NCBI GenBank assembly: GCA_029244935.1
Contig: JAQWQF010000001.1
Location: 1 to 64,000, forward strand
Direction of reading: 5' to 3'
DNA: 64,000 bases
From: Methylophilaceae bacterium
GTDB taxonomy: Bacteria > Pseudomonadota > Gammaproteobacteria > Burkholderiales > Methylophilaceae
This document shows positions 50,086-63,851 of this stretch, piece by piece; position 1 is the first letter of the stretch, and each line of letters opens with the position of its first letter. The position numbers and the translations under genes are program-made. A model generated the notes under the pieces. That model saw only the letters and a program-made list of their open reading frames with translations. It did not search any database and was not told the DNA's origin.

Positions 50086-51951
50086 TTAAGTTGAACCAGG
50101 TAAGACTCTAGAGTATATTTCTTCAAGATTTCTTGTAAAAACCTTGGGTCTGAATAAATTAGATTTTGCTTTACCTTTAATTATTTTTTCTTTTATTAGC
50201 TTTAACGATTCTTTATCGGATGCATATTTTATTGCTTCATTAATGTAGGCCTCATCAGAATCAACAATAAGTTCACTGCAGCCGACCTCCGAAAGTATAC
50301 TTCCAGCTACACGACTGGAAAAAGTATTTCCTGATTTAGTTAATACAGGGCAATGAGCCCATATAGCATCAGACGCAGATGTATGTGAATTGTATGGAAA
50401 TGTGTCGAGATAAAGGTCAATTATTTGGTGTCTATTAATATGATCTTCTATTTTTGTTTTTTTAGCAAAACATATGCGGGATGACTCAATATCCTTGTTT
50501 TTAGCATATGCTTTCAGATTATTCATACATTCTTTGTTTGATTCTAGAAGCCATAAAATACTATTAGGAGTATTTTTAAGTATTCGTAGCCACAAGTTAA
50601 ATTGACTCTCAGTAATTTTAATAGATTGACTAAATGAAGCGTAAATAAATGTATCCTCAACAAATCCAAAATCTTTTTTATTGACTGATAATAATTTAGT
50701 ACGATTCTCGATATTAGGTTGATAGCAACTTGGAAAATAAATAATATTTTCTGCATAATGCAAAATATTAGTATCTGGAACAAGATAATGATCAACTAAT
50801 ATATGGTCGTAAAGTGGAACGGAATTAATAAACCCCATAGTACTTGGAAAGCCCAACCAATTAATATGTTTTATCGCTGGCCTATACGCAGCAAGGATTG
50901 ACCGACTATTTTTTGTGAATCCTGAAAGGTCAACTAATATATCCGTATCATTTGAAGCAATTAATTTAGCTGCCTCCTGATCACTTAATTCAGAGATATT
51001 AATAAAGTCGTGCCCAAGACTTTGAAAATGATTATGAGCTGCTGAGTCTTCATTGGTGCCTGAGTAATAAAGTGTAATATTAAACTCATCTTTATTATGA
51101 TACTTAAAAATATCAATTATTAAAAAGTATAGCGGATGAAGTCTGAAGTCAGATGATAAATAACCTACCTTTATTTTTGAATTTTTATTGTTATTTCTCT
51201 TAACTTTTTGAATTTTATGCGCGTATTTTTTTGCCCAGCTGGAAGAAACTTTAAGTTGTTCTTCGCAACTAACATTAGGCATTGAAAGAACCGTAAATGG
51301 AGAAATACTTCCAGAATTTATATTGCTTATATGGTTCTTAATATTTTGAAAATGCTTATTTATATTATTCCAGTCACATACATTTTGTTTTAAATGAGTT
51401 AACTCAATCTCAGTATGAATTAAATCTGGATTTTCATTTAACGCAGCAGTATAAAATTTCATTGCTTCTGAAAATTTTCCAATAGATCTAAGAGAATTTC
51501 CAATACATGAGAGTGTCTCAGAATCGTAATTAAGCTCAAGAGATTTATTATAATGTTCTAATGCAGCATTATATTTACCTTGCGCATAACATGCATTACC
51601 AAGGTTAAATAAATATTCTGATTTTGAGGGATTGAGTTTTATTGCTTCAAGAAAGTTATTTTCTGCAAGATAGAAGTTTCTGTTGTCATAAAATTGATTT
51701 CCAATTTCACATAAGCAAAAACATAGTCCGTCTCTTAAATTTATATCATCAGGGTAGGCTAAAAATGCTAGCCTGAAATATTCTATTGCCTTATCAAATA
51801 AACCAAGCATTGCATATAAATTTCCAATCTCTATTTGAATTGCATTATTTGTTGGGTCATTTTCCAATGCTTTTTGGTAGTCAATTAATGCCCCTTCAAG
51901 GTCTCCTTTTTTCTCTTTAGATTGAGCTTTGGTTATATAATCATTATTCAT
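50086..51951 (-). CDS. TPR-repeat GT41 O-GlcNAc-transferase-like protein (SPINDLY type)
   Basis: 621-residue protein. The N-terminal part (about 1-220) contains tandem TPR units such as ALENDPTNNAIQIEIGNLYAMLG and AIEYFRLAFLAYPDD. The C-terminal part is the glycosyltransferase-41 catalytic region with KIKVGYLSSDFRLHP, DILVDLSGFTKNSR, INWLGFPSTMG and DLYLDTFPYNSHTSASDAIW. Family members move GlcNAc (or fucose in plant SPY) onto Ser/Thr; bacterial substrates are mostly unknown, some being surface or secreted proteins. It is on the same strand as the lipid operon, 52 nt downstream, so read-through is possible. Confidence 0.85.
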   Translation of the reverse strand: MNNDYITKAQSKEKKGDLEGALIDYQKALENDPTNNAIQIEIGNLYAMLGLFDKAIEYFRLAFLAYPDDINLRDGLCFCLCEIGNQFYDNRNFYLAENNFLEAIKLNPSKSEYLFNLGNACYAQGKYNAALEHYNKSLELNYDSETLSCIGNSLRSIGKFSEAMKFYTAALNENPDLIHTEIELTHLKQNVCDWNNINKHFQNIKNHISNINSGSISPFTVLSMPNVSCEEQLKVSSSWAKKYAHKIQKVKRNNNKNSKIKVGYLSSDFRLHPLYFLIIDIFKYHNKDEFNITLYYSGTNEDSAAHNHFQSLGHDFINISELSDQEAAKLIASNDTDILVDLSGFTKNSRSILAAYRPAIKHINWLGFPSTMGFINSVPLYDHILVDHYLVPDTNILHYAENIIYFPSCYQPNIENRTKLLSVNKKDFGFVEDTFIYASFSQSIKITESQFNLWLRILKNTPNSILWLLESNKECMNNLKAYAKNKDIESSRICFAKKTKIEDHINRHQIIDLYLDTFPYNSHTSASDAIWAHCPVLTKSGNTFSSRVAGSILSEVGCSELIVDSDEAYINEAIKYASDKESLKLIKEKIIKGKAKSNLFRPKVFTRNLEEIYSRVLPGST

Positions 51952-52003: not shown

Positions 52004-53212
52004 TTAAATTTTATTTCTATAATCTGGTTTGGTAATATGGAGATGTATATTACTGATTGATTTCTCTAAAAACCCACCCTCACAATAGCAGAAATAAAAT
52101 AACCACATCCTTATAAATTCTTCATCGAAACCTAACTTTATAATATCTTTATTGTTCCTAGTAAATTTTTTTCTCCAGTCAGCCAATGTTTTAGCATAAT
52201 GCTGGCCAATATCACTTAAATCATAAACCACCATATCACCTGAGCAAGTTATTGAATTTTGTATGGCATTTAATGACGGTATACAGCTTCCTGGAAATAT
52301 ATACTTTTGAATAAAATCAACTGATCGTATAGCCTTTTGATACCTTTGGTCTCTTATAGTGATTCCCTGAATTAGGGCGTCACCATTTTTGTTTAGTAAC
52401 TCAGATATTTTTTTAAAATACGAATCATAGAATTTGTGACCAACAGCCTCAATCATCTCAATTGAAACTAATTTATCGTATTTACCAGTTAACTCTCTGT
52501 AATCCTTGAATATAACCTTTATATGTTTTTCGAGCTTTAGTTGCTTAATTCTTTCACAGACATATTTGTACTGTTCCTTAGAAATTGTTGTTGTTGTAAC
52601 ATGACAACCATAATGTTTAGCTGCATGTATTGCAAACCCGCCCCAACCAGAACCAATTTCAATAACATGGTGTGATTTTTTAAGGTCTAATTTTCTACAG
52701 ATTATATCTAGCTTATGTTCTGCAGCTACTTCTAATGTTGATGTTTTATTGGGGTAAATTGCCGAGGAATACATCATTGACGGATCTAGAAATAATGAAA
52801 AAAATTTATTACTAAGGTCATAATGTTGTGCAATATTTTTTTTACTTCCATAAAGTGTATTTCTATTCAATGCATGCAATATTCTAAGAAGTGGAGCAGT
52901 TAGAATTCTAAATGGACCTTCAATAGAATCCATAGTTGATTGATTACGCGCCATCAACTGTATTACTTTAGTTACATCTTTTGATGTCCATGATTTATGG
53001 ATATAAGCCTCACTTGCCCCTATAGAGCCTCCAAGAAGAATTTCAGTATAAAAACTTGGGTTGGTGACTTTAATTTCAGCTTTTAGGACACTTTGAGTAC
53101 CAAATTTATAGATATTATTGCTTTCTGTAATTAAAAGCTGACCATTGGAAATTTTTTTAAGATTTCTATGTACTATTTTTTTTGCAAATTTGTTTAAATA
53201 TTCTCTTATCAT
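52004..53212 (-). CDS. Non-canonical Cfa-type fatty acid methyltransferase
   Basis: 402-residue member of the cyclopropane-fatty-acyl-phospholipid synthase family with the SAM motif HVIEIGSGWGGFA near 182-194. The acyl/bicarbonate site differs from E. coli Cfa: YSC is YSS near residue 150, and the LLHTIG His is replaced in LIQGITI near 281. MIEAVG keeps the Glu. Such variants sit with FAD and DUF1365 genes in photo-oxidative-stress clusters; in Rhodobacter the equivalent protein methylates vaccenoyl chains on the way to furan fatty acids (family knowledge). Last gene of the nine-gene run, overlapping DUF1365 by 4 nt. Confidence 0.82.
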   Translation of the reverse strand: MIREYLNKFAKKIVHRNLKKISNGQLLITESNNIYKFGTQSVLKAEIKVTNPSFYTEILLGGSIGASEAYIHKSWTSKDVTKVIQLMARNQSTMDSIEGPFRILTAPLLRILHALNRNTLYGSKKNIAQHYDLSNKFFSLFLDPSMMYSSAIYPNKTSTLEVAAEHKLDIICRKLDLKKSHHVIEIGSGWGGFAIHAAKHYGCHVTTTTISKEQYKYVCERIKQLKLEKHIKVIFKDYRELTGKYDKLVSIEMIEAVGHKFYDSYFKKISELLNKNGDALIQGITIRDQRYQKAIRSVDFIQKYIFPGSCIPSLNAIQNSITCSGDMVVYDLSDIGQHYAKTLADWRKKFTRNNKDIIKLGFDEEFIRMWLFYFCYCEGGFLEKSISNIHLHITKPDYRNKI

Positions 53213-53940
53213 GGGTGTGGGTAGAACCTCACTCTTTTTATAAATAATATCAATGCATTAAAATAAATTAGCACAATCGATTTAATTGACATTGGTAGAG
53301 ATAAAAATAAAATTTTATTCAGTGTAAAGTTATTCCATGCTTTCTTTGTCATTTTAAGAGTAGCATTAAATACTAATTTGTCATTACGGTAACTGTCCAT
53401 TGAAACAAAAAGGAAGTCCTTTGGAGGGCTAAATACCCAACTATAATTTATATTCATCGGCATAAATGGTGAGACATGAAACCCTTTATCAAATTCAAAC
53501 TTCTTAGACATTGATGGCTTATTTCTGCAGTCATGAACATAAATATATTTTTCATTCCATGGAGTATTTGTTATGTGGGATACAATTGCCTGAATATTTG
53601 ATGATTCGTCAAAACAATAATAAAAGCTAACAGGATTAAATGTAAACCCGAAGGAGCGTATAGTTGTTAGTAAAAAAATCTTTCCTTTATGGTTTAAATT
53701 AATTTCTTTTAACAATAAGGTCTTAATAGAATTCTTAATTGATTTTCTTTTGTCCCCATAAAAATCTGATCGATAAAAAGAGGCAAGGTTTGGCTTGTTA
53801 TAGCTCCAAAATAATTTTCCTAAGAATGCATCCTGAAGCCCATCAAGATCAAGGAAGAGCATGTTAGTTTTATACCTAAATTTATGAGATTTTGATGAAA
53901 ATCGTGTGTGTGCAATTGTGCCTTGGTAGATTGCATGCAT
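53209..53940 (-). CDS. DUF1365 family protein
   Basis: 243-residue protein that typically lies between a Cfa homologue and an FAD oxidoreductase. It has IYQGTIAHTRFSSKSHKFRYKTNMLFLDLD at the N-terminus, then SFGFTFNPVSFYYCFD and PWNEKYIYV, and near the C-terminus one hydrophobic stretch (KSIVLIYFNALILFI). These patterns define DUF1365. The biochemical role is not established; a part in unsaturated or branched fatty acid modification is inferred from the neighbours. It abuts the FAD gene with a 1-nt gap. Confidence 0.8.
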   Translation of the reverse strand: MHAIYQGTIAHTRFSSKSHKFRYKTNMLFLDLDGLQDAFLGKLFWSYNKPNLASFYRSDFYGDKRKSIKNSIKTLLLKEINLNHKGKIFLLTTIRSFGFTFNPVSFYYCFDESSNIQAIVSHITNTPWNEKYIYVHDCRNKPSMSKKFEFDKGFHVSPFMPMNINYSWVFSPPKDFLFVSMDSYRNDKLVFNATLKMTKKAWNNFTLNKILFLSLPMSIKSIVLIYFNALILFIKRVRFYPHP

Positions 53941-53941
53941 T

Positions 53942-55183
53942 TTAATTTATCAGCTTATTTAGTTGACTTACGACATCATATGCGCTTTTGACTCCGTCTT
54001 CATGAAATCCATTTCCCCAGTACGCACCAGCGTAAAATGTTCTGTTAGCTCCTGAAATTAAGTGATGATTTTTTTGTGCATTAATTCCATCAATCGTAAA
54101 CACAGGGTGTGCATAACTTAATTTTTTTATAATTTTTTTCGGGTCAATATTACTTTTTGGATTTAATGTTACAAGAATAGGGCTCTCACTTTTAATATTT
54201 TGAAGTATATTCATATTGTATGTCAGAGAGATAGGTTCATGGCTTTTGTTATCAATATTATAGTTCCATGCAGCCCATGATAATTTATGTTTTGGCATTA
54301 TCGATGCGTCTGTATGCAAATAAACTTCATTATCAGCATAGGGTATTGAGCTTAGTAATTCTTTTTCCTCGTAGCTAGTGTCTTTTATTAGTTGCAAGGC
54401 TTCACTACTATGACAAGCCATGAATAAATAATCAAAACTTTCACTGCCTTGATTGTGGTGAATAACGACTTTATTTTCCATTCTTTCAATCAACCTTATA
54501 TTAGAATTCAGTTTTATTGAATTAATAAATGGCTCACATAGCTTTTTAACATAGGACTCTGATCCCCCAGTGACTGTTAGCCATTGAGGCCTATCATTGA
54601 TATTGAGCATGCCATGATTATGAAAAAATTTTACAAAAAACTTGGCTGGAAAGTTAAGCATAGTTTTTAAATTAGACGACCAGATTGCTGAACCCATAGG
54701 TAATATATAATGTTTTGAAAAGTAGCTAGAATAATTATTATTAGCTAAATAATCACCTAATGTTATCTCTTCTTTAGCACTAAGTAACTCAAGAGCCTCT
54801 TTATTAAAGCGAAAAATTTCTAAAATCATTTTAATAAACTTAAGATTGAATAAGTTTTTTCTTTGAGAGAATAAAGTGTTTAGATTTGTACCGTTGTATT
54901 CAAGACCAGACAGTTTTGAAAAAACACTAAAACTCATATTACTATTTTCGTAATCAACTCCCAATTTGTCGAGTAATGATGTAAATAATGGGTAAGTTTT
55001 TTTGTTAAAAACAATAAATCCTGTGTCGACAGGAATAGATTTACCCTCTAATTGAACTTTATGAGTATGTGAATGACCACCAATTCGGTCATTTTTCTCG
55101 AATACTGTAATTTTATGTTCTTTATGAAGAAGGTGGGCGATAGTATTTCCAGAGATGCCAGCCCCAACTATAGCTATTTTCAT
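53942..55183 (-). CDS. FAD-dependent oxidoreductase (amine-oxidase-like)
   Basis: 413-residue flavoprotein with the Rossmann dinucleotide motif IAIVGAGISGNTIAHLLHK and the GG doublet in RIGGHSHTHKV. PVDTGFIVFNKKTYP and a C-terminal NRTFYAGAYWGNGFHEDGVKSA close the FAD site. This type of protein accompanies DUF1365 and Cfa genes in many proteobacteria and is a candidate acyl-chain desaturase/oxidase. Substrate is not shown. Its ATG overlaps the desaturase gene by 4 nt. Confidence 0.82.
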   Translation of the reverse strand: MKIAIVGAGISGNTIAHLLHKEHKITVFEKNDRIGGHSHTHKVQLEGKSIPVDTGFIVFNKKTYPLFTSLLDKLGVDYENSNMSFSVFSKLSGLEYNGTNLNTLFSQRKNLFNLKFIKMILEIFRFNKEALELLSAKEEITLGDYLANNNYSSYFSKHYILPMGSAIWSSNLKTMLNFPAKFFVKFFHNHGMLNINDRPQWLTVTGGSESYVKKLCEPFINSIKLNSNIRLIERMENKVVIHHNQGSESFDYLFMACHSSEALQLIKDTSYEEKELLSSIPYADNEVYLHTDASIMPKHKLSWAAWNYNIDNKSHEPISLTYNMNILQNIKSESPILVTLNPKSNIDPKKIIKKLSYAHPVFTIDGINAQKNHHLISGANRTFYAGAYWGNGFHEDGVKSAYDVVSQLNKLIN

Positions 55184-56151
55184 TTTTGGTAAATATTTTT
55201 TTCAGGGCTATTAATTCGATTCGATTCCCTAATATTAGTAGACACAGTTCTTACGTCCCATATCAAGCCGAATAATGACATTAATTTTAGAAGGTAATAG
55301 GTTATATCAATTTCCCACCAATAGAATCCTTGGCGAGCTGAGCCCGGGAAATGATGATGATTATTATGCCAGCCTTCGCCGAACGTTAGTAAGGCGATAA
55401 AAAAATTATTTTTACTTTCATCCTTGGTTTTATATCGAGGCTTCCCCCAAAGGTGAGCAACTGAATTTACAAGAAATGTAGAGTGGTATAAAACAACTGT
55501 TGATAATACAAAGCCCCACGACAATAGTTGCAGACCGTTAGTATTCAAAGTAGGGTGATTCGTATTCAAATATTCACCAAAGAAATAGAGGGATACGCAT
55601 GTTATGATAGGTACGAGTACGTCAAAACGATCAATTAACCTTAGTTCGGGGTACCGAAAAAGCTCTTTTACCATTTTTGTGTGTGTGAGAAAATTAGCTT
55701 TTGTTAGAAACCATCCTGTGTGACTCCAAAAGAAACTGTGTGCCTTCGGCGAATGTTTGTCATTAATTGTATCAGAATGCACATGATGTTCTCTGTGATG
55801 TGCAGCCCACCAAATTGGACCTCTTTGAACAGCTGAGGCACCTACAATAGCAAAAATAAATTGCATTAGTCGACTAGTTTTAAAAGTTTTATGGGAAAAA
55901 TAACGGTGATAAAAGCCGGTAATAGCAAACATTCTAATAGCATACATTGATATGAATACCGCAATTGCAGTTTTACTTACTCCGACAAAGAATAGAGATA
56001 TAAGAGAGAGATGAATAATAATATAAGGGATAACCCGAGCCCAATCAATTTCTTTTCCGTGCAGGTTGATATTAAGATATTTTTCTTCAACAACTCTGTT
56101 GTCAAACCAGCTAACAAAATGACGTATTAGATATTTTGTTATGCGGATCAT
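55180..56151 (-). CDS. Membrane fatty acid desaturase (acyl-CoA/acyl-lipid type)
   Basis: 323-residue di-iron desaturase with four or more membrane helices and three histidine boxes: HRYFSHK (82-88), HREHH (119-123) and HNNHH (262-266). The spacing matches delta-9 type stearoyl-CoA/acyl-lipid desaturases, and WHNNHHHFPGSARQG is the third-box context. Within this operon it could provide the double bond that the methyltransferases use. Oxygen-dependent, so it needs an electron donor not encoded next to it. It overlaps the lipocalin gene by 4 nt. Confidence 0.9.
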   Translation of the reverse strand: MIRITKYLIRHFVSWFDNRVVEEKYLNINLHGKEIDWARVIPYIIIHLSLISLFFVGVSKTAIAVFISMYAIRMFAITGFYHRYFSHKTFKTSRLMQFIFAIVGASAVQRGPIWWAAHHREHHVHSDTINDKHSPKAHSFFWSHTGWFLTKANFLTHTKMVKELFRYPELRLIDRFDVLVPIITCVSLYFFGEYLNTNHPTLNTNGLQLLSWGFVLSTVVLYHSTFLVNSVAHLWGKPRYKTKDESKNNFFIALLTFGEGWHNNHHHFPGSARQGFYWWEIDITYYLLKLMSLFGLIWDVRTVSTNIRESNRINSPEKNIYQK

Positions 56152-56666
56152 TGATGGGGAACCATTCTAAGTAGGTCGGTGTTATAGCCTAAAGCGTTTA
56201 TGTGAGCCACTATTTTATCAAGCTCTGGTTTATCTATCTCATTGGCTCTTGACATTATCCATACATAATCAAGGGCATCACGAGCTATTACAGTTGTTTT
56301 GTAATCATTATCTAGATAAGTTATTTTGTATTGAGACTTAAAAGGCCATATAAACTGCATATCCCATTGAGCATTATTCGTACCTTCTACAATAAAGCCT
56401 TTTGGATTATATGTCTTTTCTTGACCCTTAAGAGAGCCTTTATTAAACGTAAATGTTGTTGCAATAGTGCCATCATTATTAAGCTCATACGATTCAATTG
56501 CGTTATAGGCTTCTTTTTCAATAAATGTCGGTATGTGCGCGATCACATACCATGAACCCATAAACTCATTTATGTCGACTTGATCAACTGTTCTTAGGTT
56601 AACTGAGTTCATTGAACATCCAGAAATAAAAAAAAATATAAAAAAAATTATTTTAAAAACAATCAT
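56148..56666 (-). CDS. Lipocalin outer-membrane lipoprotein (Blc-like)
   Basis: 172-residue lipocalin with a lipoprotein signal (lipobox ISGC, Cys about 17). It carries the structurally conserved FMGSWYVIAHIPTFIE start, YNPKGFIVEGTNNAQWDMQF, and a late YVWIMSRANEI close to Blc. Blc-family proteins bind fatty acids and lysophospholipids and are induced under envelope stress. Placement in a lipid-modification operon fits a role in carrying or salvaging membrane lipids, though this is inference. Confidence 0.88.
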   Translation of the reverse strand: MIVFKIIFFIFFFISGCSMNSVNLRTVDQVDINEFMGSWYVIAHIPTFIEKEAYNAIESYELNNDGTIATTFTFNKGSLKGQEKTYNPKGFIVEGTNNAQWDMQFIWPFKSQYKITYLDNDYKTTVIARDALDYVWIMSRANEIDKPELDKIVAHINALGYNTDLLRMVPHQ

Positions 56667-56679
56667 ATATAATAAATAA

Positions 56680-57306
56680 TTAAATTAATTTATAGAAAAT
56701 ATCACCTATTGGTGTTGGTGATTTTAAACCAACCCAATTCATTTCTTTATCATACCAAAGATCAATAACTAGACGTTCATTCCCCTCCTTAGTTCCTTTT
56801 AAAACATAATGATTTGTCATTATGTTTTGCCCTTTAACTGACAACAATTCTTGTTTAATTAAAGTTGTTTCAATGTCCAGCCATTCTGCATTTTGTGGAT
56901 TAAGAAGCTTTTTTTCTTTTAGCATATTTGGATCCCAATAAGCGAATGTCATAATACAAGCGGGAAGGGATTCGGTAAGTTTGTTAGTTTTAATAAGAAA
57001 TTCATTACCATTTAAAAGGCCATTCACTTCAATGATTTTTCCATCATCATCTGTTTTGCTATCAATTTTAGTCAAACATCCCTGAGTCCATAATTCCGTT
57101 GATACATGTTTGTAGTATATATCCATAAACATAAATTCAATATGAAACTTAGCAGAACTAATTGTTTTCTTATTATCAATCCTGAATGTATGTTGCCCTA
57201 TGATTTTATCATTGAGGATCGCATCAAATTTCCATTCCTGAGCACTCACATTTTCAGAAAAAATAAATAATAGAGTAATTAGGTAGGCTATTTTTTTGGT
57301 GGCCAT
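56680..57306 (-). CDS. Exported protein, DUF6134-like
   Basis: 208-residue protein with an N-terminal signal peptide (cleavage near VSA-QE, about residue 22). The mature portion starts WKFDAILNDKIIGQHTFRI and ends WVGLKSPTPIGDIFYKLI. Its strand-rich pattern resembles the DUF6134/DUF3108 type of periplasmic proteins, so lipid binding is possible but unproven. Family naming is from memory of the pattern, not a search. It overlaps the DUF1295 gene by 19 nt. Confidence 0.6.
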   Translation of the reverse strand: MATKKIAYLITLLFIFSENVSAQEWKFDAILNDKIIGQHTFRIDNKKTISSAKFHIEFMFMDIYYKHVSTELWTQGCLTKIDSKTDDDGKIIEVNGLLNGNEFLIKTNKLTESLPACIMTFAYWDPNMLKEKKLLNPQNAEWLDIETTLIKQELLSVKGQNIMTNHYVLKGTKEGNERLVIDLWYDKEMNWVGLKSPTPIGDIFYKLI

Positions 57307-58049
57307 GGGATAAAGCTCGATGTGTGTTGTGCGTATTTTTTATATCCTGGCCGTCTACCAGAAATAGTACTTTCCATTCTGCCAATACCAGAAAATTTGA
57401 GGAGTAACCATGTCATGAGAATTGGTGAGAAAATTGCAATCAGATGACCGGAGCTGAAAGAGACAATATAAAAACCCCACCAAACTAGAAATTCACCAAA
57501 ATAATTTGGATGCCTTGAATATCGCCATAAGCCTGTATCTAGAACTCCCTTGTGATTACCATTAACAAATTGCTTAAGCTGGTAGTCGGCTATAGTTTCG
57601 TACAATATGCCAAATATAATGATTCCAAGTCCAATCTTATCAATCATACTGTAAGGGTGGTCACTATTTGCTAATGCTATCAATGGTAGGGATATAACCA
57701 TAGCTAATACAGCCTGGAATATAAATATTATATATAAGCTTTTGAATTTAAAGTTTGGCTCATTGTTGCTTCTAATTTCCTGGTACCGAATATCTTCCTT
57801 GGAGCCAAAGTTGCGGATTGAAAGATAGGCCGTTAATCTTGCTGACCAAATTAAAACCAAAAATAAGACTGCTATATTTTGATTGGAAAGTAGCCATGTT
57901 TCTTGCAATGCTGTGACGTATGCAATAACAATAAAGATACTCCACATACTATCTACATGTGTAACATTCTTTGTTACTAGGCTAACTGCCCAACCAATGA
58001 TCGCAAAAATAAGTAAGTTTCCAGCTATTAAAATATAAATATCAATCAT
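57288..58049 (-). CDS. DUF1295 membrane protein (steroid 5-alpha-reductase-like)
   Basis: 253-residue polytopic membrane protein with six or so hydrophobic segments. The C-terminal motif WRYSRHPNYFGEFLVWWGFYI followed by GRRPGYKKYAQHTSSFIPWPPK is characteristic of DUF1295/steroid 5-alpha-reductase and ICMT-like enzymes that bind NADPH or SAM near the R-HPNY-GE motif. It may reduce or methylate a lipid substrate; the operon context supports a lipid, but the reaction is unknown. It overlaps its neighbours on both sides. Confidence 0.8.
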   Translation of the reverse strand: MIDIYILIAGNLLIFAIIGWAVSLVTKNVTHVDSMWSIFIVIAYVTALQETWLLSNQNIAVLFLVLIWSARLTAYLSIRNFGSKEDIRYQEIRSNNEPNFKFKSLYIIFIFQAVLAMVISLPLIALANSDHPYSMIDKIGLGIIIFGILYETIADYQLKQFVNGNHKGVLDTGLWRYSRHPNYFGEFLVWWGFYIVSFSSGHLIAIFSPILMTWLLLKFSGIGRMESTISGRRPGYKKYAQHTSSFIPWPPKK

Positions 58050-58545
58050 TTTTTTGGGATAAATATACTAATAGAGGCGTAAAAACAGCCCATCCTAATG
58101 AAAGAACGAATAATGCTTGAGTTTCAGTGATGGTTATAGCGCCTAATTTCTCGCCTGCAATATAGGCTAAAGGACCACCAATTGATCCAAATAAGGCAGC
58201 CAAGGCCATCCGTCCTTTTAACCAACTAAGACTATGGTTTAAGGTCATAGCAAACATTATCCAAAGAATAATGATCCATAATGGCGTAAGGGGGTATGGC
58301 CATCCTGGATCATTATATAAAATTAAGCTGTTGTATTGTATTAGCCCATCGAATAAAAACCCGATGATAGCTGCGTAGATAAATAATTTAATATCCTGCA
58401 TATAGTTTTGAATAACTTTTAGGTGAATTAATATAATAACTACTGAAACAATTATTGCTTCTGAGGTTCTTCCGTAGGCTGCTCCTAAAATGGCAGTAAA
58501 CCATCCAAACTGAAATAAAAGAAAGTTGATTAATTTAGATTTCAT
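58042..58545 (-). CDS. DUF2878 membrane protein
   Basis: 167-residue protein with about five hydrophobic helices. Its features are FQFGWFTAILGAAYGR, DGLIQYN and PLTPLWIIILWIMFAMTLNHSL. This matches the DUF2878 pattern that co-occurs with Cfa, FAD and DUF1365 genes in Gammaproteobacteria such as Vibrio and Shewanella (general knowledge). No catalytic residue is obvious and function is unknown. It overlaps DUF1295 by 8 nt and the methyltransferase by 4 nt. Confidence 0.72.
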   Translation of the reverse strand: MKSKLINFLLFQFGWFTAILGAAYGRTSEAIIVSVVIILIHLKVIQNYMQDIKLFIYAAIIGFLFDGLIQYNSLILYNDPGWPYPLTPLWIIILWIMFAMTLNHSLSWLKGRMALAALFGSIGGPLAYIAGEKLGAITITETQALFVLSLGWAVFTPLLVYLSQKND

Positions 58546-59573
58546 TTTTTAAAAAGATAATGTGAAACTCGCCATTCATCACCGTCGTTGAAGCCCCAGA
58601 GCTCAGCACATGCCATAAAGAATATTCTCCAACGCTGTAACCATTTTTTTGCATCATTTTTTCCGTAAACACTCTCCAGAGATTGTATAGCTTTTATATT
58701 ATTTTTATCAATATTTTTAAGCCAGGCATTAGCCGTATTTTCATAATGGTTTCCTGACCAAGTCCATTGCTTCTCTATCTTAATTTTATCTTGAAAGTGA
58801 AGAGGAAGGTCCTCACTTGGCATCATTCCACCAGAGAAAAAATACTGACTCATCCAGTCATCCTTGTCCTCAACTTCGAAGAGATAAGGTTGAGATTTAT
58901 GCACAAATATGTGCATAAAGAATTTTCCTTTAGGGTTGAGCCACCTAGAAATATTTGCAAATAATTTCCTATGATTTCGCATATGTTCAATCATTTCTAC
59001 AGATACTATTCGGTCATATTTTTTGTTAGTTTTAAAAATATTCATATCGCATGTTATTACCTCAATATTTTTAAGTTTTCTTAATTTTGCTTGAGATAAA
59101 ATATAAGTGCGTTGTGAGGATGAATTTGATACGGCAGTTATCGAACTTTTTGGGTAATGTTTAGCCATCCATAGAGTGAGCGAGCCCCACCCACAACCAA
59201 GTTCTAGAATACTTAGGCCATCCTTAAGATTGGCATGATTACAAGTTTTTTTTAAGGCTAACTTTTCAGCTTGATCAAGATTATTTGTTTTTTTATCCCA
59301 ATAACAAGAACTATATTTTTTATTTAATCCTAAGCAAAGATTATAAAATTCAGCAGGAACCTCATAATGTTGTTCGTTAGCTAGCTCTGGAACCAATGCA
59401 ATTGGAGACTCGTCCATTGCATTAATAAAATTTTGTTTTATCTTCTGTCTCTCCTCTGATGTCCCTTTTGAGAGTGAATGTAGTCTTTTTTTAAGAAGGG
59501 ATCTAATTCCATACCGTATTAATGTATCCGGCAAAAGATTTTTTTCAGCAATTTTTATTAATATTGTAATCAT
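58542..59573 (-). CDS. Second Cfa-family SAM methyltransferase
   Basis: 343-residue Cfa/coclaurine-N-methyltransferase-like enzyme, distinct from the other Cfa gene in this operon. SAM motif ILELGCGWGSLTLWMAKHYP is near 120-140. SVEMIEHMRNH keeps the Glu-His pair, KYSSCYW has a shifted Cys, and FMHIFVH keeps a His that the partner gene lacks. No N-terminal lipid-binding extension of standard Cfa type is seen. It is the first gene of the nine-gene run; its upstream 76 nt border tRNA-Glu. Substrate could be a lipid or a small amine. Confidence 0.8.
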   Translation of the reverse strand: MITILIKIAEKNLLPDTLIRYGIRSLLKKRLHSLSKGTSEERQKIKQNFINAMDESPIALVPELANEQHYEVPAEFYNLCLGLNKKYSSCYWDKKTNNLDQAEKLALKKTCNHANLKDGLSILELGCGWGSLTLWMAKHYPKSSITAVSNSSSQRTYILSQAKLRKLKNIEVITCDMNIFKTNKKYDRIVSVEMIEHMRNHRKLFANISRWLNPKGKFFMHIFVHKSQPYLFEVEDKDDWMSQYFFSGGMMPSEDLPLHFQDKIKIEKQWTWSGNHYENTANAWLKNIDKNNIKAIQSLESVYGKNDAKKWLQRWRIFFMACAELWGFNDGDEWRVSHYLFKK

Positions 59574-59649: not shown

Positions 59650-59725
59650 TGGTGACCCCAAGGGGAGTCGAACCCCTGTTGCCTGGATGAAAACCAGGTG
59701 TCCTAGGCCTCTAGACGATGGGGTC
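59650..59725 (-). tRNA. tRNA-Glu (UUC)
   Basis: The minus strand reads GACCCCATCGTCTAGAGGCC from the 5' end. The 7-bp acceptor stem GACCCCA / TGGGGTC and the anticodon stem CCTGG / CCAGG enclosing loop TTTTCAT give anticodon TTC. The T arm is CAGGGGTTCGACTCCCCT, with discriminator A and an encoded CCA. The 76-nt length and sequence closely match bacterial tRNA-Glu. It lies upstream of the lipid operon on the same strand. Confidence 0.97.
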
Positions 59726-63149: not shown

Positions 63150-63851
63150 TTGAAAATTTTATATTTATTAGCTAATCCTCAAAGAAAAATAATTTTTAAT
63201 TTTGCATTTCTATTCTTTTCTTTAATGGCGCATGCTGGAGAATCAAACTTGATAGATAAAAAACAACTTGTAGTTTTTGAATCTGAGACATGTGGCTCTT
63301 GTAAAGAGTTTGAGAAAGATGTAACAGCTAATTGGAAGTCATCATTTTCAATAGAAAAAACCTATAATATGCAGGCCCCAACTGGTCTTAAACTAAAAGA
63401 ATCTGTATGGGCTACCCCAACTATTGTTATGTTCGATGATGGTAAGGAAGTTTCGAGGTACACAGGTTACGATGGCAATAAACAAGCGTTTTGGAGATGG
63501 TTTGGGCAGAATACTATGACACCAGAGCAAAAAAGAATTGCCTTTGAAGATGGAACAGAGCCTGCCTTTAGCGGATCACTTCTTGATAATCATTTACCAG
63601 GTTATTACGTAGATCCATTAACGGGTGAGCGTTTATTTCGAAGTGATAAAAAATTTGATAGCGGAACTGGTTGGCCAAGCTTTTTTAATCCTGTTCCAGG
63701 TTCATTGGTATTTAATGACGATGGACGAAGGGTTGAAGTATTAAGTGCAAGTTCAGGCATTCATTTAGGCCATGTATTTAATGATGGCCCTCCACCAACT
63801 GGAAAACGTTATTGTATTAATAGTGCTGTATTGAAGTTTGTAGCCGACTAA
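63150..63851 (+). CDS. msrB: Exported thioredoxin-like/MsrB fusion, methionine-R-sulfoxide reductase
   Basis: 233-residue protein that repairs methionine-R-sulfoxide, probably in the periplasm. The signal peptide runs to about residue 29 (MAHA-GE). A thioredoxin-like domain (about 35-118) has CGSC at 48-51 and ATPTIVMFDDG with the cis-Pro. The SelR/MsrB domain (about 120-233) contains YDSG-like FDSGTGWPSFF and the catalytic Cys in RYCINSA. The usual recycling Cys of SGCGWPSF is Thr, and the zinc CxxC pairs are missing, so the fused CGSC may do the recycling. TTG start with AGGGAG. Confidence 0.9.
   Translation: MKILYLLANPQRKIIFNFAFLFFSLMAHAGESNLIDKKQLVVFESETCGSCKEFEKDVTANWKSSFSIEKTYNMQAPTGLKLKESVWATPTIVMFDDGKEVSRYTGYDGNKQAFWRWFGQNTMTPEQKRIAFEDGTEPAFSGSLLDNHLPGYYVDPLTGERLFRSDKKFDSGTGWPSFFNPVPGSLVFNDDGRRVEVLSASSGIHLGHVFNDGPPPTGKRYCINSAVLKFVAD

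Follow-up and report, generated by a model that had tools for sequence, protein, structure and literature searches.

Synthesis of furan fatty acids has been described for Rhodobacter sphaeroides, in which UfaM yields 11Me-12t-18:1, UfaD converts this product to a conjugated diene, and UfaO adds an O2-derived oxygen to give the furan (PMC7380195). The three genes are consecutive, in the order ufaD-ufaO-ufaM, in R. palustris (RPA2571-2570-2569) (PMC7380195), and ufaD, ufaO and ufaM are also consecutive in Halomonas sp. YLGW01 (PMC12089945). UfaM of both organisms produces 11-methyl-octadec-12-enoate, the Halomonas enzyme doing so in E. coli (PMC7380195, PMC12089945); E. coli cells expressing Halomonas ufaM contained cyclic fatty acids too, but this host has its own cfa (PMC12089945).

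In bacterial Cfa, five residues form the bicarbonate site (Cys139, Glu239, His266, Ile268 and Tyr317 in E. coli). All five are listed as strictly conserved among non-plant enzymes (PMC3132707), and Glu239, His266 and Tyr317 are named as the side-chain ligands of bicarbonate (PMC11387697). Exchange of Cys139 for Ser leaves the E. coli enzyme with 31% of its normal catalytic efficiency (PMC3132707). The cotton enzymes GhCPS1 and GhCPS2 are reported to carry both C139S and H266Q; the case of GhCPS1 is clear, while for GhCPS2 the paper prints 'I729' in a sentence saying Q, an apparent misprint, with Gln266 reported for the family (PMC3132707). In yeast, GhCPS1 and GhCPS2 produced C17 and C19 cyclopropane fatty acids, and GhCPS3, which retains the Cys, produced none (PMC3132707).

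Gene product and fold

The DNA analyzed, referred to here as the window, is a stretch of 64,000 nucleotides from a Methylophilaceae bacterium, and its relevant features are collected in Table 1. The gene under study is an intact open reading frame with an ATG start (ORF list). Its 402-residue product matched PF02353, the cyclopropane/mycolic acid cyclopropane synthase (CMAS) family, with an E value of 1e-80 (Pfam), and its top phmmer match in the PDB was E. coli Cfa (6bqc, E 3e-50). The AlphaFold model has a pLDDT of 90, and the Cfa structures 5z9o and 6bqc superpose on this predicted fold over the full length (TM 0.76-0.87). The CMAS/Cfa-type fold of a SAM methyltransferase, which UfaM requires, is thus seen in both the family match and the model, where TM reaches 0.87. 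Automatic annotation would label the gene a cyclopropane synthase. Against the NCBIfam cyclopropane synthase equivalog, the protein scores 275 bits, under the 400-bit cut-off.

Table 1. Coordinates of the operon, its flanking tRNA gene and the active-site codons in the window
Feature	Position	Strand	Basis
ufaM-type SAM-dependent fatty acyl methyltransferase, 402 aa	52004..53212	-	CMAS match, UfaM clade, Cereibacter identity
Ile286 codon, opposite E. coli Ser270; GhCPS2 I733T position by residue offset	52355..52357	-	PMC3132707
Gln282 codon, opposite bicarbonate ligand His266 of E. coli	52367..52369	-	alignment; His266 role from PMC11387697
Glu255-Ala256 codons: conserved bicarbonate ligand Glu239; Ala replacing His240	52445..52450	-	
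Glu252 codon, aligned with Gly236 of E. coli (Gly in 27/27 Cfa-type, Glu in 53/53 UfaM-type)	52457..52459	-	
Ser150 codon, at the place of Cys139 in E. coli Cfa	52763..52765	-	alignment and sequence
ufaO-like gene, DUF1365	53209..53940	-	PF07103, E 5e-66; single match per Cereibacter genome
ufaD-like gene, flavin amine-oxidase family	53942..55183	-	PF01593; 36% identical to Cereibacter protein encoded beside UfaO
Membrane fatty acid desaturase	55180..56151	-	sole PF00487 match in genome
Lipocalin (Blc-like)	56148..56666	-	PF08212
DUF6134 protein	56680..57306	-	PF19630
DUF1295 membrane protein	57288..58049	-	PF06966
DUF2878 membrane protein	58042..58545	-	PF11086
Second CMAS-like methyltransferase, candidate FufM (9M5-FuFA methylase), head of operon	58542..59573	-	
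tRNA-Glu directly upstream of the nine-gene operon	59650..59725	-	ARAGORN

Clade membership

Genomes of Cereibacter, the genus of R. sphaeroides, were selected through contigs encoding the reaction-centre L subunit, whose sequence served as a search key only. The window protein found one match in each of five Cereibacter genomes, with 37-39% identity. The protein of C. johrii, a sister species to R. sphaeroides, reads MTYSS and LQIIT, and so carries the same Ser and Gln as the window protein. The preliminary description had put forward the sharing of these two residues with Rhodobacter UfaM as a supporting test, and the Cereibacter orthologues agree with it. The ufaM gene of C. johrii adjoins a photolyase-like gene, as judged by eye.

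We then compared 53 UfaM-type with 27 Cfa-type proteins. The UfaM-type grouping was set by gene neighbourhood (ufaO at the locus), independently of the residues, and 12 entries without a visible ufaO (the window protein, Rhodobacteraceae, a contig end and one plasmid) were grouped by similarity. In a tree of 82 homologues the 53 UfaM-type proteins form one clade with support of 100/99, which was recovered in 100% of 200 bootstrap trees. The window protein and C. johrii UfaM lie inside this clade, and the 27 Cfa-type proteins lie outside; the window protein thus groups with UfaM and does not fall among the bacterial Cfa proteins.

Cereibacter UfaM (R. sphaeroides RSP2144 type) shares with the window protein its clade, the signature of Ser, Gln, Glu236 and Ala240, and the partner genes (PMC7380195), but the identity noted above is modest and the gene arrangement differs: ufaM stands apart from ufaD and ufaO in R. 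sphaeroides, whereas in the window it is part of a ufaD-ufaO operon that also holds a desaturase and a second methylase. R. palustris UfaM (RPA2569; PMC7380195) and the Halomonas sp. YLGW01 protein (PMC12089945) are likened to the window protein by partner genes and gene arrangement alone. The protein is a further UfaM, of a family already described, and its operon is also of a recognized type.

Active-site residues

Residues were compared in a MAFFT alignment of 83 sequences, in which the window protein and 77 homologues were joined by UmaA, a mycobacterial methyltransferase, and by four cyclopropane synthases of known structure. E. coli Cys139, Glu239, His266, Ile268 and Tyr317 correspond to Ser150, Glu255, Gln282, Ile284 and Tyr339 of the window protein, so that the five-residue bicarbonate site of bacterial Cfa here reads S, E, Q, I, Y. 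The preliminary description had read YSS for YSC and LIQGIT for LLHTIG by eye, and both the alignment and the phmmer pairing with 6bqc gave the same correspondence. By alignment, no other Cys or His in the window protein stands in for positions 139 and 266. The SAM motif and the Glu, described as intact, are indeed both retained, but the motif around the Glu is otherwise changed: VGMFEHVG of E. coli reads IEMIEAVG, with Glu252 at the place of Gly236 and Ala256 at that of His240. The window protein therefore resembles E. coli Cfa in its fold, N-terminal lipid-binding domain, SAM motif, Glu239, Ile268 and Tyr317, and differs from it at positions 139, 266, 236 and 240 and in its clade.

The positions differ in diagnostic value. 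Every UfaM-type protein (53/53) has Glu at 236, Ala at 240 and Asp at 279, residues that no Cfa-type protein (0/27) has at these sites; Gln at 266 is found in 53/53 and 1/27, respectively, and position 270 is Ile or Val in all 53 UfaM-type proteins. Because the UfaM clade itself varies at position 139 (44 Ser, 5 Cys, 4 Ala), the absence of Cys139 is the weakest mark, and Ser139 was rejected as a diagnostic residue (9/53 carry Cys or Ala). Gln266 was likewise rejected as proof of methyl transfer, both by the cotton enzymes and by one Cfa-type protein from a congener (L168, G020:C1:24000-31000). This protein, the sole member of the Cfa group without His at 266, has Gln there and yet retains Cys139, Gly236 and His240.

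Since cotton enzymes with both residues make cyclopropane, the presence of Ser and Gln is insufficient to argue for methyl transfer; the pair marks the UfaM/plant-type branch without ruling out cyclopropanation. The protein could then make cyclopropane lipids as plant CPS enzymes do, with a bound base still deprotonating the methyl group despite Ser and Gln at the Cys and His positions, and with the oxidase as an accessory. Plant CPS enzymes (cotton GhCPS1/2, Sterculia) resemble the window protein in having an oxidase partner and, in cotton, Ser139 and Gln266; the N-terminal domain of the cotton enzymes is an oxidase whose deletion costs approximately 70% of activity (PMC3132707), and in Arabidopsis the UfaM and UfaD homologues are fused in one protein, AT3G23510 (PMC10940516). 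In plants, however, the oxidase is fused to the synthase and a cyclopropane product has been demonstrated, whereas the window encodes the oxidase as a separate gene, although Ser and Gln are present. Moreover, both ufaO and ufaD share the operon, the characterized bacterial members so arranged make the methyl product (PMC7380195, PMC12089945), and the Agrobacterium homologues of the oxidase and synthase gave no cyclopropane product in yeast (PMC3132707). We consider a plant-type cyclopropane synthase unlikely here. The preliminary description had doubted cyclopropanation and favoured a methyl transfer as in furan fatty acid synthesis; its conclusion is probably right, supported by the clade and the ufaD/ufaO operon, neither of which it had drawn on, while its reasoning from the residues is insufficient in view of the cotton enzymes.

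The GhCPS2 substitution I733T raises cyclopropane production about tenfold (PMC3132707). By residue offset, this site would correspond to E. coli position 270, which makes it a lead on the choice between ring and branch and not a result.

Operon organization

The ufaM-type gene closes a run of nine genes on the same strand (59573 to 52004), most of which overlap slightly or are separated by only a few bases. The terminal three genes encode a flavin amine-oxidase-type protein, a DUF1365 protein and the CMAS protein, in the order ufaD-ufaO-ufaM; the partners that UfaM requires in a genome are thus found here as adjacent genes, homologous to Cereibacter UfaD and UfaO. The UfaO model has a pLDDT of 92 and a predicted beta-rich fold followed by a long C-terminal helix. 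No relative of UfaO was found in the PDB by sequence, and fold matches there were weak (best E 0.016), those ranked highest including the OssO spirocyclase and nitrobindin.

The UfaM-type loci fetched carried the ufaD-ufaO-ufaM block wherever the contig sufficed, with Rhodobacteraceae as the known exception, and ufaO and ufaD were found beside none of the Cfa genes at 20 loci (about 3 kb on each side). The block is present on annotated plasmids of Pseudoalteromonas, Acinetobacter, Aeromonas, Klebsiella, Azospirillum and Cupriavidus. The Acinetobacter cluster (pYUSHP14-1) groups lipocalin, desaturase, ufaD, ufaO, ufaM, DUF1295 and second methylase genes as in the window; unlike the window cluster, it is plasmid-borne and has its DUF1295 and methylase genes after ufaM, not before it.

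The closest solved relative of the methylase at the head of the operon is coclaurine N-methyltransferase (E 6e-73, full length), to which Arabidopsis LIME1 is related as well. Methylases of this type are encoded near ufaM in Acinetobacter and on several Rhizobiales plasmids. FufM, which methylates 9M5-FuFA, has LIME1 as its homologue in Arabidopsis (PMC10940516); the R. palustris FufM is RPA0924. Because of this similarity, the ufaM neighbourhood and the LIME1 relationship, the first gene is a candidate fufM, an assignment towards which we lean. Such an enzyme would convert 9M5-FuFA to 9D5-FuFA, and with it the operon may encode synthesis of dimethyl-furan lipids.

A different end product has to be weighed as well. 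The window gene could encode a methylase of the UfaM kind in an operon that makes not the known 9M5 furan acid but some other lipid, such as one with a methyl branch or a shifted chain owing to the desaturase. The desaturase gene adjoins ufaD in Acinetobacter and in the clusters examined from this family, and is absent from Pseudoalteromonas-type and Azospirillum-type clusters, and the window UfaO is just 26-28% identical to Cereibacter UfaO. The three core enzymes nevertheless stay together, and the genome encodes FabA, a source of cis-unsaturated chains, so these chains do not depend on the operon desaturase and the ordinary substrate can be made. We regard such a product as unlikely.

Proposed function

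The gene very probably encodes UfaM, which uses SAM to methylate phospholipid acyl chains in the opening step of furan fatty acid synthesis, and it is clade and operon with ufaD and ufaO, not Ser and Gln, that support methyl transfer. Predicted fold, clade, residues and operon were observed here and the chemistry comes from homologues elsewhere, by analogy with which the window protein would have the same activity and would form 11Me-12t-18:1 from a cis-vaccenoyl phospholipid, its presumed substrate chain. UfaM would bind SAM and a cis-unsaturated acyl chain in the Cfa-type fold and move the methyl group from SAM to one olefinic carbon. The proton lost next would come from the adjacent chain carbon and not from the methyl just added, and the product would have a methyl branch next to a trans double bond (11-methyl-12t-18:1 from cis-vaccenate); residues around the bicarbonate site presumably steer this deprotonation. 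UfaD would next add a second double bond, UfaO would insert the O2-derived oxygen and close the furan, and the second operon methylase may add a second ring methyl.

Cyclopropane synthase is the name that annotation gives to proteins of the UfaM branch, as in the plasmid records, and for many furan-lipid producers among marine and soil bacteria cyclopropane lipids may be wrongly predicted as a result. The residue comparison provides simple marks that separate the branches, and shows the most visible of them, the Cys, to be the least reliable. The I733T substitution in cotton, at what would be the site occupied by Ile or Val in all UfaM-type proteins examined, offers a handle on ring closure versus branching within one fold.

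Genome and genus context

The genome is 1.25 Mb in size and 95% complete. No separate Cfa was found in it; beyond the two operon methylases, the other PF02353 match was only partial (C30, 37 bits). Among the 31 genomes of this small-genome genus, a UfaM query matched 30, a few of the matches being fragments, and intact Cfa-type copies occur in three congeners only (G008, G020 and G021). A fourth congener genome has a Cfa-type copy with two in-frame stops (G027:C18:10925-12034). It looks as if Cfa is being lost in the genus while ufaM is kept.

Loss of function could be asked of the window protein too, as a degenerate or inactive Cfa whose catalytic residues are gone: it departs from E. coli Cfa at two of the five bicarbonate-site residues, and the congener copy with stops shows decay of a related gene. 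We find this hardly credible, as the SAM motif, Glu, Ile and Tyr are retained, the substitutions are common to a clade of 53 members, and UfaM matches persist across the genus. A broader proposal is possible but rather doubtful: that a fixed set at the bicarbonate site (Glu236, Ala240, Gln266, Ile/Val270 and Asp279), and not Cys139, decides between methyl branch and cyclopropane, and that in this streamlined genus Cfa has been displaced by the operon, which by itself would provide a complete pathway to membrane lipids of the dimethyl-furan (or desaturase-modified) kind.

Singlet-oxygen control as in R. sphaeroides was considered and is unsupported here: the genome gave no match to the anti-sigma factor ChrR, and the ChrR/sigma-E-type promoter word TGATC is absent upstream of the operon in the window and in all relatives but one.

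Two further genes in the window were noted by eye. Beside the operon, 50086-51951 encodes a TPR protein whose C-terminal part resembles an O-linked GlcNAc transferase, and the open reading frame at 63150-63851 encodes a thioredoxin-like N-terminus followed by a part like the methionine sulfoxide reductase MsrB.
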